Assembly: GCA_002753735.1 (NCBI GenBank)
Contig: PEAN01000041.1
Location: 1-35,506, forward strand
DNA: 35,506 bases
Direction of reading: 5' to 3'
Origin: Magnetococcales bacterium DCbin4
GTDB lineage: Bacteria > Pseudomonadota > Magnetococcia > Magnetococcales > UBA8363
The notes below the pieces were generated by a model. The model was given only the letters and a program-made list of their open reading frames with translations, did not search any database and had not been told where the DNA came from. Numbering within the stretch: position 1 is the first letter of the stretch; each line of letters starts with the position of its first letter. Made by a program: the position numbers and the translations under genes. Shown piece by piece: positions 3,680-35,506 of the stretch.

Positions 3680-3856
3680 AAAAAAAAGGGGTCTCAAGGG
3701 ATTGCCCCCAGGGTGTTGATTTTAGAAACCAAGTCAAAATCGGAACATGGAAACCTTTTTGTTTAAAATCAAAATCAAAGTCCTGGGGGCAATCCCCCAG
3801 ACCCCTTTTTTCTTTCAATATTTTTATACATATCAGTCAAATGCCAGTCATTTTTT
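3680..3856. repeat. Two-armed palindromic repeat, copy A (inverted orientation)
   Basis: Left arm 3680-3713 is an A-tract plus GGGGTCTCAAGGGATTGCCC with a CCAGGG extension. Right arm 3781-3811 is its near reverse complement and ends in a T-tract. The spacer contains GGAAACCTTTTTGTTTAAAA, which is the reverse complement of the spacer in the copies at 5528 and 20321, so this copy lies in the opposite orientation. The AT-rich tail 3812-3856 matches the outer flank of the 25487-25995 copy. It separates convergent genes and reads as an intrinsic terminator for the + strand at its right arm and for the - strand at its left arm. Confidence 0.85.
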
Positions 3857-10895: not shown

Positions 10896-10965
10896 GGGCA
10901 AAAAGTCAAAAGCAAAACCCTGGGGGCAATCCCTTGGGACCCCTTTTATTCTTGATCATTTTATT
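10896..10965. repeat. Single-arm palindromic repeat, copy D
   Basis: AAAACCC, then TGGGGGCAATCCCTTGGGAC with a CCC-T-tract and a TTCTTGATCATTTT end. It lies between the fliI stop and the start of the AT-rich kinase operon, both on the minus strand. The G/C hairpin is intact. The T-tract reads on the + strand. Confidence 0.8.
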
Positions 10966-24231: not shown

Positions 24232-25416
24232 TTGCATGGTCGTACAATGAAAACTTCATCCAATCGCGAACAACAACTTTTTCTGGTGGCCGGCGGGGCC
24301 ATACTTTTTCTGATTCTGGCGGTGGTTGTTTTCAATATGATCAGCACCCCCAGCCCGGTCCCCGAAGAATTGGCCAAGCCCATCTCAAAGGTCAATATTG
24401 CCGACGCCCAGATTGCCGCGGCGGTGAAGGAAGCCAACAATCCTTGGAAAATCAACAACGAATCCAACACCATTCTGCCCGAGGCCCCACCTCCGGACAA
24501 TTCGGTCTATCTGGCCCCCAAAGAAGTACGGCTACCCTCCCAATCCGGTTCCGAGGCTGCGGCTGACCCCCTGGGCAATGCACGACAATTGCTTGAACCC
24601 ACCCCTGCATTGCCACCCGGACCCGGCAACAACGTCGCAAAACCGCCCGCCGCCCACAACCCGAGCAATGTTCCGGCGCACAACGACGTTGCGGTTGAAC
24701 CCGCCCGTACGGAGGCGGAACCGCACCCTGCAACCGCAACCCCGGCACCCCGTCCACAGCAGGTGGAAAAACCTGTCAACAAACAACAACAGCCCTCACC
24801 GACAATGTCGGCACCGGCGAAAACCGTCAAACCTGTTGCAGCAATCCCCCCTGCCACGCCTGCCGCACCTCAGGCCACCGTGCATGAACCCGCCAACAAA
24901 GCGGCCCGGGTCACCACTCCTCAAGTCATACCCGAACCCGCCAACAAAACGACCCGGGTCGCCAGTCCACAGGTGATTCCACCGAACGAACCCCAAAAAC
25001 CGGCCCAACCCACCACCAAACCGGCCCCGGCTGCCAAGATTGACTATTCCGAAGCCATCACCCAGGTGATTGCACGCCAGTTCAACCAAGCCGAGACCAG
25101 TGGCGCCGCCAAACCAACGGTCAAACCAACGACCGCCACCGCCTCCTCTGCCCCCGTCAAGCCTTCGGGATCAAGCTTTCAAATACAAATCGCCTCTTTT
25201 GCCACCGCCGATAAAGCAAAAATGATGGCAGACAAGGTGGGATCGGTCACGTTCCAAGGTCGCCGCATGCCGGTCAGTCAAACGAGTGCCACCGTCAGCG
25301 GCAAAACCTATTTCCGCGTCCGTGCCGGCCCCTTCGTCAGCCGTAATAATGCCGAGGCGGCCCTTCAGTCCCTCGGTCAAGCGGGCATCGCAGGTTCCAT
25401 CGTTTCCTTGGATTGA
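24232..25416 (+). CDS. SPOR-domain membrane-anchored protein
   Basis: The protein has 394 residues, or 389 if it starts at the second ATG (24247); neither start has a strong ribosome site. A single hydrophobic anchor (about residues 20-37) follows a short basic N-terminus. Residues ~60-300 are a Pro/Ala/Thr-rich linker, and a C-terminal SPOR domain (about 318-393) begins SSFQIQIASFATADKAKMMA. The layout resembles FtsN-like division proteins and other periplasmic peptidoglycan-binding proteins. The linker contains a 48-bp tandem duplication. The gene is divergent from hemN. Confidence 0.9.
   Translation: MHGRTMKTSSNREQQLFLVAGGAILFLILAVVVFNMISTPSPVPEELAKPISKVNIADAQIAAAVKEANNPWKINNESNTILPEAPPPDNSVYLAPKEVRLPSQSGSEAAADPLGNARQLLEPTPALPPGPGNNVAKPPAAHNPSNVPAHNDVAVEPARTEAEPHPATATPAPRPQQVEKPVNKQQQPSPTMSAPAKTVKPVAAIPPATPAAPQATVHEPANKAARVTTPQVIPEPANKTTRVASPQVIPPNEPQKPAQPTTKPAPAAKIDYSEAITQVIARQFNQAETSGAAKPTVKPTTATASSAPVKPSGSSFQIQIASFATADKAKMMADKVGSVTFQGRRMPVSQTSATVSGKTYFRVRAGPFVSRNNAEAALQSLGQAGIAGSIVSLD
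24885..24980 (+). repeat. 48-bp tandem duplication in the SPOR protein linker
   Basis: Two consecutive units beginning GAACCCGCCAACAAA (24885 and 24933) encode EPANKAARVTTPQVIP and EPANKTTRVASPQVIP, a 16-residue repeat with three substitutions. Confidence 0.9.
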
Positions 25417-25626
25417 TGTCCCCAAGGAAAAAAGGGGTTCAGCCTGCGCGGGAATGATGGAGAATGATTGTCCCATAAAAAATTAATTCTACTTTGTTAC
25501 ATTCATTAACTGAAGAGGATGGCTGGCAATTGACTGATATGCATAGGAATATTGAAAGAAAAAAGGGGGCTTAAGGGATTGCCCCCAGGATTTTGATTTT
25601 GTTTTTCACGCGCCATTTCACCCGAA

Positions 25627-25661
25627 GCAAGAGTTTCGCGTGGTTTTTGCGGGAATCTTGC
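25627..25661. repeat. Core hairpin 1
   Basis: Stem GCAAGAGTTTCGC / GCGGGAATCTTGC with mismatched or wobble pairs, loop GTGGTTTTT. It is the mirror partner of hairpin 4, whose loop is the exact reverse complement. Confidence 0.75.
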
Positions 25662-25678
25662 TTGAGGCGCGAGCCTTG

Positions 25679-25717
25679 GTCCCGGCCTTTTCGCGGTTTT
25701 TGCGAAAAGGCCGGGAC
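25679..25717. repeat. Core hairpin 2
   Basis: Perfect 16-bp stem GTCCCGGCCTTTTCGC with its reverse complement, 7-base loop GGTTTTT. Confidence 0.9.
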
Positions 25718-25753
25718 ACATTGCAGGGGGTGAGGCATGACCACAGGCAATGC

Positions 25754-25792
25754 GTTTGCCTTTCTTCGCAAAAAACGCGAAGAAAGGCAAAC
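25754..25792. repeat. Core hairpin 3
   Basis: Perfect 16-bp stem GTTTGCCTTTCTTCGC with its reverse complement, 7-base loop AAAAAAC. It has the same dimensions as hairpin 2 but a different stem sequence. Confidence 0.9.
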
Positions 25793-25808
25793 CAAGGCTC
25801 GCGCCTGC

Positions 25809-25843
25809 GCGATCTTCCCGCAAAAACCACGCGGGAAGATCGC
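25809..25843. repeat. Core hairpin 4
   Basis: Perfect 13-bp stem GCGATCTTCCCGC with its reverse complement, 9-base loop AAAAACCAC. Confidence 0.9.
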
Positions 25844-25999
25844 TTCGGGTGAAATGGCGCGTAAAAAACAAAATCAAAATCAAAGTCAAAGTCCTGGGGG
25901 CAATCCCTTAAGCCCCCTTTTTTCTTTCAATATTCCTATGTATATCAGTCAATTGCCAACCATCCTCTCCAGTTAATGAATGTAACAAAGTAGAAGTAA

Positions 26000-26046
26000 T
26001 AACAAAGTCAAAGTCCTGGGGGCAATCCTTTAATCCCCCTTTTTTT
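26000..26046. repeat. Single-arm palindromic repeat, copy H
   Basis: AACAAAGTCAAAGTCC, TGGGGGCAATCCTTTAATCC, CCC and a T-tract that runs into the hydrolase stop codon (26046-26048). It sits only four bases beyond the end of copy G, so two units are stacked here. It reads as a + strand terminator. Confidence 0.85.
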
Positions 26047-26747
26047 CATGGATCATTTTTTTCCGATGGATTCAAAAACCGTCCGATCCACGCCGCGAGA
26101 TGATCTTCCTGACCCAAAAAAAAGTGATCCAATCCAGCGGGCAGTACGTACCGGGTTTTGGGGGCGGGCAGTTGGTCGAACAAATTTTTGGCCAAGGGGG
26201 AAGGGCAGGCAAAATCATCTTCCGCCCACAGAAGGGCTTTGGGATGACCTGCCCCCGGATGTGGCGGGGGCAGTGGCCATTGGGTCAACGGAGGGGCAAT
26301 CAGCACCATCCGATCAATCAAAGGATCCCGCTCCACCAATGCCAGAGCAGAAAGGCAACCATACGAATAACCCACCACATGACACCGGATACCTGTTCCC
26401 ATGAGTTGATGTAAAAACGCCATTGCCGCCCATGTATCCAACCCCATTTGCGTTTCGTAGGCCGGAGCAGTGGAATCCTGCCAGAAAAGACGTTGATCCT
26501 CAAGCAGATCACGGCAGGTTTCACTGCGACCCACCCCCTGATGGTTGAAGCGGAATACTGCAAAATCCCGCTGTGCCAACCCATGGGCCAAACCGGCGGT
26601 GATGTTGTTTTCCATGTCACCGCCCATGAACGGATGGGGTGGACAGATCAGGACGAAGGCCAGCGGTTCGTCGAGTTGATCCCCATACGTCAATCGTCCT
26701 TCAAGACGCAGATTTCCCGAAGGGAAAAACAAGGTTTCTTCAATCAA
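26046..26747 (-). CDS. Alpha/beta hydrolase
   Basis: This 233-residue protein has the nucleophile elbow GYSYG (Ser128), a candidate acid Asp177/178 in AEDDF and His208 in GLDHFF, which form a complete triad pattern. The N-terminal PPHPFMGGDMENN and FRFNHQGVGRS segments match the dienelactone hydrolase/YihN-like 'alpha/beta hydrolase' group common in proteobacteria. The substrate is unknown. Its start overlaps the stop of the upstream lipoprotein gene by four bases (ATGA), so the two are translationally coupled. Confidence 0.88.
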   Translation of the reverse strand: MIEETLFFPSGNLRLEGRLTYGDQLDEPLAFVLICPPHPFMGGDMENNITAGLAHGLAQRDFAVFRFNHQGVGRSETCRDLLEDQRLFWQDSTAPAYETQMGLDTWAAMAFLHQLMGTGIRCHVVGYSYGCLSALALVERDPLIDRMVLIAPPLTQWPLPPPHPGAGHPKALLWAEDDFACPSPLAKNLFDQLPAPKTRYVLPAGLDHFFLGQEDHLAAWIGRFLNPSEKNDP

Positions 26748-32763: not shown

Positions 32764-35385
32764 ATGATCAAAGACGCTTCTTTGACCCACAGTGACACTG
32801 TTGGTTTCATTCCCGCGGTCACAGCCATATTTCGCATCGGTTTTGTCCTCTTCACCGTTGAATTTCTTGTCATGCTCATTCTTCCCCGCATGACCGGAGA
32901 AGGTGGGATGGAAACCTGGTTCGCCGTTTTGGAGGATTCGTTCCTGTTGGCGGTGATTTCCACCCCACTGATCATGAGATGGTCGCTGAAGGGTTCGGAC
33001 ACAACGAAAAAATTCATAAAATATGATCTTTCCTTCAGCATTACTGCGTTCAATGTCGGTATTGCGGTGTTTTCCATCGTCTTTTCCATCGAATGTGGCA
33101 TCATGCTGTTCATTCCGGTGACCGGATACGAGGAAGGATCGCTGATTCTCGCCACCCTCGATGCCTCCATGCTGGCCGCCAGTGCAGCTCCCATCGTGTT
33201 CTTCCTGATCGTACTGGATCCGGGTGGCATATTGACGGTTTTCCACGCCAACAAACTGAAAAACGTCCGACGACAGTTTCTCATGTTGTTTCTGCCACAG
33301 GTGATTCTATTTTCACTGGTCACCGAGGCCCTTTATTCCCAGGAGGCACGTTCCCGTATCAATCAAGTGGAGCACAAAGAACTTCAGTCCCTCAAGTTGA
33401 TCGAAGACCACCTGTCCCGGGAAATGGAATATGTGGTGGAGGATCTGCTGCTTCTGACCCACAACCCGGCTACACTGGAATCGGCACGGGGAAATCCGGA
33501 TGCCAAGGCGATGTTGCTCCAGGACTTCTCTTGGCTGCTCCAGGCGAAAAACCGGTTCCAAAGCATATTTCTGGTCGATTCCCACGGAAGGACCCAGGTT
33601 CAGATCGATCTGCATGATGGCGAGGTGCAAAAGACAACGACCGAACCATCATTCCTCCTGGCCCGGAACATGCCCGACCCCGAGTCTGTTCAGGATGGTA
33701 CCATCACCCTCACCGGACCCTTGGTGCCCGCACACCTTCCCCGGGGTGCCATTGTGTTACGGCTTGGATCCCCGGTCATGGATTCCGAGGGACGGGTTGT
33801 CGGCATGATTTTCCTGGATTGTTTCTGGGAGAACTTTAAAATGATGCTCACACCCATGGTCGAATCATTGGTGGGACAATTGCAATTTCATGCGTCTGAT
33901 CGATCCCGGCTTGATTTGTTTTCCACGGCAACGACCGCTTTTCCCATGGGAGATTCCCTCTGGCAAAAAGTGACTCAGACGCATGAGGGACGGATTGGGT
34001 TATCCAGCCATCATGGAACCTTCCTGTTCACCACCCTCAATCTTCAAGGACGATTTCCCTCTTGGGCACGGCATGAACAACGCGTATTGCATACCTCTTC
34101 ATGGAAAATCATCTCCTGGGTTTCCACCGGGAAGCAGAGTGCCTTTCTGGCGGTATTCCACAAACGATTGTTGATCCTGCAATCCTTTTTGATCGGACTG
34201 GCCGCGATCGGCAGTTGGTTTTTCGCCCAGGCCATCATCAATCATCGGGAAGCGGATGCGCGAAGTGAACAGGCACATCAATCACAAATCACCTTGAATG
34301 CCCTTCTTGAAACCGCGCTGCTTCCCATGGCGCTGGAAAAACAACTGCGTTCCGCCATTCAGATCGTCAGCGCAACCCCCTGGGTGGGATTGACCGGCAA
34401 AGGGGCCATTTTCATTGCCGATCCCGAGGAACAGCATATGAAGCTGGTGGCACATCTGGGTTTGTCGGAACTTGAACAGAGCCAGGTGCAAAAAATATCC
34501 ATGGGCCGTTGTCTGTGTCACCAGGAAGGCAACTGGCGTCGGGTATTGCAGTTCCCCCAGGATGCCCCGGATCATGTCCCTTGCTTGAAAAACAAAGGGC
34601 TTCAGGGCAGTTACTGTGTTCCCATCCCGGGAACCCACGGGCCGTTGGGGGTGATGCATATGGAGTTGAAGTCGGCAGCCGCTTCCCGGGAAGAAGAGGC
34701 CTTCTTCTTTACCGTGGCAGGGACGCTTTCTGCCATCATCGAACGACGCCGGATGGAATTGGAACTCACCAAAACGAATGAAGAGCTGAAACAAACCCGT
34801 CTTGATATCATTCACCGCTTGGGCATGGCCGCTGAATATCGCGACCAGGATACCGGACTGCATGTGGTGCGTATGAGCAAATATGCCGCCCTCCTGGCCA
34901 AAGCCGCCGGATTTTCGGAAAGCTTTTGCGAAACCATGCTCAACGCCGCTCCCATGCATGACATCGGCAAGATCGGAATTCCCGATCATATTCTCCTTAA
35001 ACCGGCGCGTTTGAACGAACAAGAATGGGAAATCATGAAAAAACACACCTTGATCGGGTCAATGATGCTGCACGGTTATGATGCCGAACCGATGAATACT
35101 GCGCATATCATTGCCCTGACCCATCACGAACGATGGGACGGCAAAGGTTATCCCATTGGTGTCCCGGGTGAGGAAATCCCCATTGAAGGTCGAATCTGCG
35201 CCATTGCCGATGTCTTCGATGCCCTGACCAGCGAACGGCCTTATAAGAAAGCGTGGGAAGACGAGGAAGCCCTTCGGGAAATTCGCAAAATGGCGGGTGT
35301 CGCCTTCGATCCCAATCTGGTGGAGGTTTTTGTCAATATCTTTCCAGAAATGCTCGCCATCAAAAAAACCTACACCGATGAGTAG
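32764..35385 (+). CDS. Membrane HD-GYP phosphodiesterase with periplasmic sensor and GAF domain
   Basis: The protein has 873 residues. The N-terminus has two copies of a two-helix module (about 15-75 and 95-152), then a helix near 170-190, an extracytoplasmic sensor region of dCache-like character (about 200-460), a membrane helix (about 470-493), a GAF domain (about 520-670) and an HD-GYP domain. HD-GYP residues are intact: HD at 732-733 (MHDIGKIGIP), HHERWDGKGYP with GYP at 795-797, and ADVFDALTSERPYKKAW. It should hydrolyse cyclic di-GMP to pGpG or GMP and link an external cue to motility or attachment (family knowledge), consistent with the flagellar and adhesin genes nearby. It ends directly at repeat copy J. 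Confidence 0.93.
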   Translation: MIKDASLTHSDTVGFIPAVTAIFRIGFVLFTVEFLVMLILPRMTGEGGMETWFAVLEDSFLLAVISTPLIMRWSLKGSDTTKKFIKYDLSFSITAFNVGIAVFSIVFSIECGIMLFIPVTGYEEGSLILATLDASMLAASAAPIVFFLIVLDPGGILTVFHANKLKNVRRQFLMLFLPQVILFSLVTEALYSQEARSRINQVEHKELQSLKLIEDHLSREMEYVVEDLLLLTHNPATLESARGNPDAKAMLLQDFSWLLQAKNRFQSIFLVDSHGRTQVQIDLHDGEVQKTTTEPSFLLARNMPDPESVQDGTITLTGPLVPAHLPRGAIVLRLGSPVMDSEGRVVGMIFLDCFWENFKMMLTPMVESLVGQLQFHASDRSRLDLFSTATTAFPMGDSLWQKVTQTHEGRIGLSSHHGTFLFTTLNLQGRFPSWARHEQRVLHTSSWKIISWVSTGKQSAFLAVFHKRLLILQSFLIGLAAIGSWFFAQAIINHREADARSEQAHQSQITLNALLETALLPMALEKQLRSAIQIVSATPWVGLTGKGAIFIADPEEQHMKLVAHLGLSELEQSQVQKISMGRCLCHQEGNWRRVLQFPQDAPDHVPCLKNKGLQGSYCVPIPGTHGPLGVMHMELKSAAASREEEAFFFTVAGTLSAIIERRRMELELTKTNEELKQTRLDIIHRLGMAAEYRDQDTGLHVVRMSKYAALLAKAAGFSESFCETMLNAAPMHDIGKIGIPDHILLKPARLNEQEWEIMKKHTLIGSMMLHGYDAEPMNTAHIIALTHHERWDGKGYPIGVPGEEIPIEGRICAIADVFDALTSERPYKKAWEDEEALREIRKMAGVAFDPNLVEVFVNIFPEMLAIKKTYTDE

Positions 35386-35506
35386 TTCTACTTTGTTACA
35401 TTCATTAACTGGAGAGGATGGCTGACAATTGACTGATATACATAGGAATATTGAAAGAAAAAAGGGGGCTTAAGGGATTGCCCCCAGGACTTTGACTTTG
35501 ATTTTG
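35386..35506. repeat. Left arm of palindromic repeat, copy J (cut by window end)
   Basis: It begins at the base after the HD-GYP stop codon with TTCTACTTTGTTACATTCAT and follows the right arm of copy G (reverse complement) almost base for base, through AATATTGAAAG, the A-tract, GGGGGCTTAAGGGATTGCCC and CTTTGACTTTGATTTTG. The rest lies beyond the window. Confidence 0.9.

Follow-up and report, generated by a model that had tools for sequence, protein, structure and literature searches.

The window analysed here is a 35,506-nucleotide stretch of the Magnetococcales bacterium DCbin4 draft genome (contig PEAN01000041.1, contig 23 of the draft). A 519-bp inverted repeat at positions 25482-26000 encloses four hairpins and represents one copy of a dispersed family. 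The limits of this palindromic element were set by the complementarity of its arms, and other copies have the same borders. The arms (25482-25606 and 25876-26000) are 125 nt long and 94% complementary, and a second arm pair of the palindrome is 67 nt long and 90% complementary. The terminal arms, which begin with TTAATTCTACTTTGTTACATTC on the left and end with GTAACAAAGTAGAAGTAA on the right, enclose terminator-like modules (hereafter called B modules) and the hairpin core. Except for the B modules, these features are given without strand.

From the outside inwards, the core comprises an outer stem (25608-25626 with 25844-25862, identified from inverted repeat I2 and the predicted fold), two hairpins of the same size called X (H1, 25627-25661; H4, 25809-25843), and a GC-rich inner stem (25665-25678 with 25793-25806; inverted repeat I5, helix 1 of the consensus). 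The latter carries hairpin H2 of the Y2 class (25679-25717), a middle hairpin (25718-25753, ACATTGC...GCAATGC) that is short in this copy and was delineated from sequence, fold and consensus, and hairpin H3 of the Y1 class (25754-25792). H2, the middle hairpin and H3 thus make up a cloverleaf on the inner stem, flanked by H1 and H4, with the repeats and longer arms outside. An earlier note, made from the letters of this region, had described the four hairpins at these places, and its description holds. H2 and H3 are equal in size, each with 16 perfect pairs and a 7-nt loop (GGTTTTT and AAAAAAC, respectively), and their stems differ at 8 of 16 positions. H4 has 13 perfect pairs around the loop AAAAACCAC; H1, with the loop GTGGTTTTT, is decayed, since 10 of its 13 pairs are Watson-Crick and three are not. 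The middle hairpin, which that note had missed, is weak in the window and has 16 perfect pairs in L023, a different copy from this genome. In the window the loops of H1 and H4, and those of H2 and H3, are complementary or nearly so; they are mirrored because the whole region is palindromic, which places H1 opposite H4 and H2 opposite H3. Kissing between opposite loops was considered and set aside, as inspection of several elements in genomes G003 and G004 revealed non-complementary left and right Y loops (GGTTTTT with GCCTTCT or GCCTTTT, both read outside-in).

Folding predictions indicate that this region is strongly structured. As RNA, the single strand of positions 25600-25875 has a predicted energy of -197.2 kcal/mol, compared with -94.7 for shuffled sequences (z = -19.1), and as DNA it reaches -125.5 kcal/mol (z = -17.7); none of 200 shuffles was as good in either case. 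In the minimum-energy fold of the window copy the H1 region pairs with the H4 region, so that separate X hairpins are not part of the best fold, which counts against the interpretation that we favour below. The robustly predicted part is the cloverleaf formed by H2, the middle hairpin and H3, which was found in all eight copies folded (the window, L023, L179, L195, L213, L273, L282 and L284).

The B modules form an inverted pair around the core and are terminator-like on each outgoing strand. The left one, GGGGGCTTAAGGGATTGCCCCCAGG (25565-25589), gives a terminator-like hairpin followed by a T run when read on the - strand. The right one, CCTGGGGGCAATCCCTTAAGCCCCCTTTTTT (25893-25923, + strand), has a GGGGGC/GCCCCC stem, a loop of 10 and then TTTTTT, and by sequence it qualifies as an intrinsic terminator; it is absent from the terminator scan because its loop exceeds 8. 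A further single B module adjoins the element at 25998-26045 (+ strand) and is 90% complementary to the left one (I3, D1). With up to two mismatches, the B-module 15-mer GGGATTGCCCCCAGG has 517 matches in the 4.52-Mb draft genome, versus 4 for the reversed control. Shorter cores of other kinds are likewise present between B pairs, in the window at 3690-3810 and in L168, L171 and L173. The inverted B pair at 3690-3810 surrounds a different short core (AAACCAAGTCAAAATCGGAACATGGAAACCTTTTTGTTTAAAATC), which is the same as in those three loci, and L169, L172 and L174 have a third type of core, whose letters resemble CATCCCCCACAGGGGG.

Element sequence, either of the core or of the arms, was collected from approximately 50 places in the DCbin4 genome, and 35 of the 49 places other than the window copy touch a contig end (L009-L046, L157-L167). 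The elements thus break assemblies, which may explain why they have been overlooked. At the right end of the window itself, the gene at 32764-35385 is immediately followed by the outer portion of a further copy (35383-35506), which is truncated by the contig end. An assembly artefact was rejected as an explanation for the window copy: it has unique flanks, and orthologous copies exist in independent assemblies. A phage or plasmid origin was also rejected, as neither a phage collection nor a plasmid collection yielded a match to the element. The hemN-like protein of the window is 77-81% identical to its counterparts in Magnetococcales MAGs. The segment 8001-11000 has a G+C content of 0.40-0.43, versus 0.52-0.61 around it, and was perhaps acquired; its genes, named by eye, are response-regulator/cyclase-like and sensor-kinase-like, and a B module is located at 10919.

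We then looked at the distribution of the element. An earlier sequence search had matched 11 of 41 genomes, with only three outside the genus, all weakly. A covariance model of the inner unit matched 19 of 48 Magnetococcales genomes in 4 of 17 genera (8/8 genomes in g1, 3/3 in g5, 7/11 in g7 and 1/1 in g14). In a scan of 299 Pseudomonadota genomes, the 18 with a model match all belong to Magnetococcales. In the other families, the order of the hairpins and the loop pattern, with T-rich loops to the left and A-rich loops to the right, persist with unrelated stems. Hairpins are detectable in 31 of 33 non-genus loci and in none of these 31 does an A-rich loop precede a T-rich one; the other two loci have no detectable hairpin. 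Genome G030 (family f5) is predicted to form the same cloverleaf as the genus from unrelated letters. Genome G039 (family f7) has 25 model matches, and six of the eight loci retrieved from it harbour four perfect hairpins in the order X-Y-Y'-X', with X stems of 13-14 bp and Y stems of 21 and 23-25 bp. Its left loops (gcctttt or gcttttt) and right loops (aaaaggc, aaaaagc or aaaaaac) resemble those of the genus, and its cores are set within different outer repeats. The fold is older than its own sequence. In G039, an extra small hairpin, CACTCG...CGAGTG, lies on one side of the core (L273 770-1110, L272, L275 and L278); it marks the orientation of the core, and both orientations occur among the copies.

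The earlier note had taken paired changes to mean that folding of DNA or RNA is preserved, and had proposed a covariation analysis of further copies. For the Y hairpins, 163 raw anchors were reduced to 111 (a B module nearby, listed misanchored prefixes removed) and then to 93 with the exact 16+7+16 dimensions; for the X hairpins, 890 were reduced to 115 and then to 73 rows. As a Y anchor must match 8 of the 10 inner letters TTCGC/GCGAA, the conservation of those letters is partly imposed. Stems are perfect in 69 of 111 Y and 49 of 115 X hairpins; a few misanchored rows are left in the sets of 111, 115 and 31 (e.g. L190, L192, L199, L217 and L231). Watson-Crick pairing amounts to 93.1% in the outer 11 bp of the 93 Y hairpins, versus 84.2% after shuffling the 3' arms within genome and class, and to 90.1% in the outer 9 bp of the 73 X hairpins, versus 65.9% after 3'-arm shuffling. 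None of 2,000 shuffles reached the observed pairing in either case. At four pair positions of the exact Y hairpins, all four Watson-Crick types are present.

RNAalifold analysis of 35 aligned inner units (alignment A1) recovered the inner stem and three hairpins with 48 pairs, 23 of which have changed on both sides. In these units 96.1% of the cells are paired, compared with 85.8% after column shuffling and 36-54% in slid controls, and 202 cells have changed on both sides, compared with 66 after shuffling. Compensatory changes in genome- and genus-wide copies thus go far beyond the arm-shuffle and column-shuffle controls and, together with the recurrence of the fold with unrelated stems, support the view that folded DNA or RNA is maintained. 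That note had named two observations that would speak against its idea, a lack of other copies and mispaired stems in them. Other copies do exist; mispaired ones were found at a minority of sites, such as H1 and chimeric hairpins. The sequence turns over and the fold is maintained, and it seems that the folded shape rather than its letters is what matters.

Pairing within each hairpin is accompanied by a lack of identity between the two Y hairpins. The H2 and H3 stems are unlike in all 37 genus elements that have both, when 6.9 elements with the same stem were expected from within-genome shuffling, and the two Y stems, one of 21 bp and the other of 25 bp, are likewise unlike in each of the six loci of G039 that have the complete set of four hairpins. 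The mirror-symmetric flanking arms are homogenised (94%), yet the Y stems remain unlike, which points to selection for a branch versus a straight hairpin. X stems of the genus are the same in 2 of 31 cases versus 10.9 expected, but those of G039 are alike on both sides; therefore, distinctness of the X stems was dropped as a general rule and only the Y rule is general. Among genus Y loops, 102 of 105 are T-rich when read outside-in.

Template switching, reported to generate hairpin stems and to keep them intact (accessible text of PMC8794818), is the strongest alternative explanation of the covariation as such. The elements would then be inert palindromic repeats, with stems perfected by template switching and cores shuffled and inverted by homologous recombination. 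Chimeric hairpins built from the arms of two alleles do exist (L177, L196 and L215/L228). In the eight copies of G039, moreover, the Y2 stem differs at 0.137 per base versus 0.053 for the rest of the core (2.6-fold) and is paired in all eight, and its changes look as if the two arms had changed together, a pattern that template switching would account for well. We nevertheless consider such a fold without function quite improbable, as homogenisation of the long arms never extends to the mirrored Y stems, and as the order of loops and of hairpins is retained in families whose stems are unrelated; neither feature is derivable from arm correction alone. Each of the eight G039 copies has a different yet paired Y2 stem, which makes the long-standing question of selection versus template switching directly testable.

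Comparisons of single sites in related genomes show that a core may be turned around at its site, that a different core may take its place between the same B modules, and that a relative may lack it. L205 and L215 (G003 and G004, two species) represent a shared insertion. Close alignment extends over its flanks and B module, with the core reversed, and the middle sequences are almost reverse complements of each other. The L213 site holds the hairpin core in G004, a B pair around a different, short core in G003 and nothing in G005. At the L206 site the element is absent from G004, L209 and L220 are distinguished by a gap of 17 bases within one X hairpin, and synteny is lost at the L211 site. 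Neither a clean empty site nor a clean target-site duplication was found among these compared sites. As for MITE features, inverted ends are present and TTAA stands beside several ends (by eye, uncounted), and no two end motifs facing inward at a distance of 1-3 kb were seen by eye among the matches listed. TTAA or a similar sequence often adjoins the outer end TTCTACTTTG (L011, L014-L021, L025 and other contig-end loci; by eye), and a target-site preference is possible.

The genomic positions of the elements were surveyed at 31 sites for which a simple codon-usage script had called a gene on each side, including 7 B pairs without hairpin core, and compared with 48 gaps elsewhere in these loci, in L234 and in the window. 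All 31 sites are intergenic, and 30 are 3' of at least one gene, versus 36 of the 48 background gaps. The flanking genes are convergent at 11 sites, codirectional at 19 and divergent at one, versus 3, 33 and 12, respectively, in the background (Fisher p = 0.0017 for convergent and 0.012 for divergent arrangements). Ten neighbouring proteins were scanned and are of mixed types, including SPOR, alpha/beta hydrolase, TPR proteins, an AcrB-type transporter, an AMP-binding enzyme and a sigma-54 activator, with one lacking a match. No dedicated protein for the element was found.

A position 3' of genes fits terminators and REPs alike, and the T run at the far end together with this position suits a transcript equally. 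The element might thus be a structured RNA at mRNA 3' ends, with the cloverleaf in the 3' UTR, the far B module ending the transcript and the fold protecting or processing the mRNA. The abundance of convergent sites, the terminator-like B modules, the predicted RNA fold and the compensatory changes, a classic RNA signature, all agree with this possibility. We consider it unlikely, because the direction of the core is free and cores are inverted in place, and because perfect Watson-Crick stems of up to 25 bp and dyad symmetry are superfluous for an RNA. In addition, the X and Y mismatches of codirectional sites, read on the transcript, comprise 10 G-U and 16 A-C (26 in total); the lack of a G-U excess means that there is no sign of an RNA strand. 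In the inner stem of alignment A1, in the Y1-left orientation, G-U cells do outnumber A-C cells, and they are mostly changes common to the close genomes G003 and G004. Rfam, at the gathering score, yielded no match in the window or in six loci from three families of the order, and the single promoter-like site in 25000-26500 is no more than in shuffles.

The earlier note had also suggested a hairpin-recognising enzyme of the IS200/IS605 type, in which case the element would be a REP or REPIN moved by a Y1 transposase (RAYT or IS200/IS605). Compensatory changes, there in the spacer, and a possible clover-shaped fold have likewise been described for REPINs (accessible text of PMC3116915), and Y1 matches occur in 7 of the 8 genus genomes. 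The link was rejected and retains very little probability in our view, as B modules are near none of the 11 Y1 loci of the genus and the presence of Y1 genes is not tied to that of elements. PF01797 genes are not near elements, and they occur in 14 of 19 element-bearing versus 19 of 29 element-free genomes of the order; the five element-bearing genomes without a Y1 match, G039 among them, are incomplete drafts. The only core-type hairpin motif near Y1 loci is one unrelated string, in L236. REP hairpins carry a GTAG or CGTC tag at their base (accessible text of PMC3733652), and no such tag was seen by eye in the 35 elements of alignment A1, where the bases are like CCTTG/G...C/GCATTGC.

These analyses define a dispersed, apparently non-coding palindromic element of Magnetococcales, located downstream of genes, whose core comprises the four hairpins. 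What is kept is a stem carrying Y, middle and Y' hairpins with flanking X and X' hairpins, Y loops of 7-8 nt rich in T on the left side and in A on the right side, and a pair of Y stems that differ within each element. The letters of the stems are replaced over time, with pairing retained. We favour, at about even odds, the proposal that this is a REPIN-like interspersed element kept for a branched fold, probably at the DNA level. We infer that the element acts as DNA: the lagging strand at the fork, or an extruded cruciform, would fold into a branched shape with T-loop and A-loop hairpins. The element has the same appearance from both strands, and therefore each strand would be able to form the same branched shape. 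A host protein might read the hairpin tips and the junction, not the stem letters, which would place the shape under selection. The element could spread and exchange its parts through recombination or with help in trans, as REPINs and bacterial interspersed mosaic elements (BIMEs) do, and the flanking B modules would serve as bidirectional terminators for the neighbouring genes. More tentatively, and with some doubt, we propose that the heritable trait is the branched single-strand shape itself, a cloverleaf of unlike hairpins with two flanking ones. This shape would be built alike by both strands, could be inverted where it stands, would have been kept in different families of the order with its stems replaced, and would be read by a putative host factor from the tips of the hairpins and the geometry of the junction.

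Sequence is what usually identifies an interspersed palindrome. In the Magnetococcales element the shape is conserved and the letters are not, and the Y hairpins at mirror positions, which are never alike, provide a built-in control. The terminal hairpins of parvoviruses also consist of small palindromes nested in a larger one, with the inner part in two orientations, but the element is chromosomal and interspersed and has no Rep gene, and the analogy is one of shape only. Compensatory folding is a feature of the bcr1 repeats of the Bacillus cereus group, for which we know of no cloverleaf palindrome or order-wide stem turnover. Like the element, bcr1 is a lineage-specific interspersed repeat of 100-400 bp present in tens of copies (accessible text of PMC6542083). 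The LIMP palindromes of Lobosphaera mitochondria are similarly intergenic, with an invariant 7-nt loop, a proposed cruciform and a role as rearrangement sites; however, they are described as single hairpins of pentanucleotide repeats whose loop occurs in both orientations, whereas the loop direction of the element is fixed (accessible text of PMC4524435).

Our literature search, in which most subscription papers were outside reach, yielded no description of this repeat in Magnetococcales, and the string 'Magnetococc' is not found in the main text of RepRanger (PMC12306157). BIMEs, as generally described (see also the accessible part of PMC2817692), are likewise mosaics of palindromic units and modules with interchangeable inner parts. 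Their modules and hairpins are unrelated to those described here, and the Magnetococcales element differs by its fixed branched core inside inverted terminator-like repeats. The closest known system in behaviour is that of REPINs, or REP doublets. Both are interspersed, extragenic, present in many copies and in inverted arrangement, with conserved parts and compensated stems, and the authors who reported compensatory changes in REPINs also envisaged a clover fold (accessible texts of PMC3116915 and PMC3733652). As far as these texts describe them, REPINs consist of two short REPs, whereas the element comprises three to five ordered hairpins of 12-25 bp with nested stems, has neither tag nor linked RAYT, and replaces its stem letters between families while retaining the order of its hairpins.
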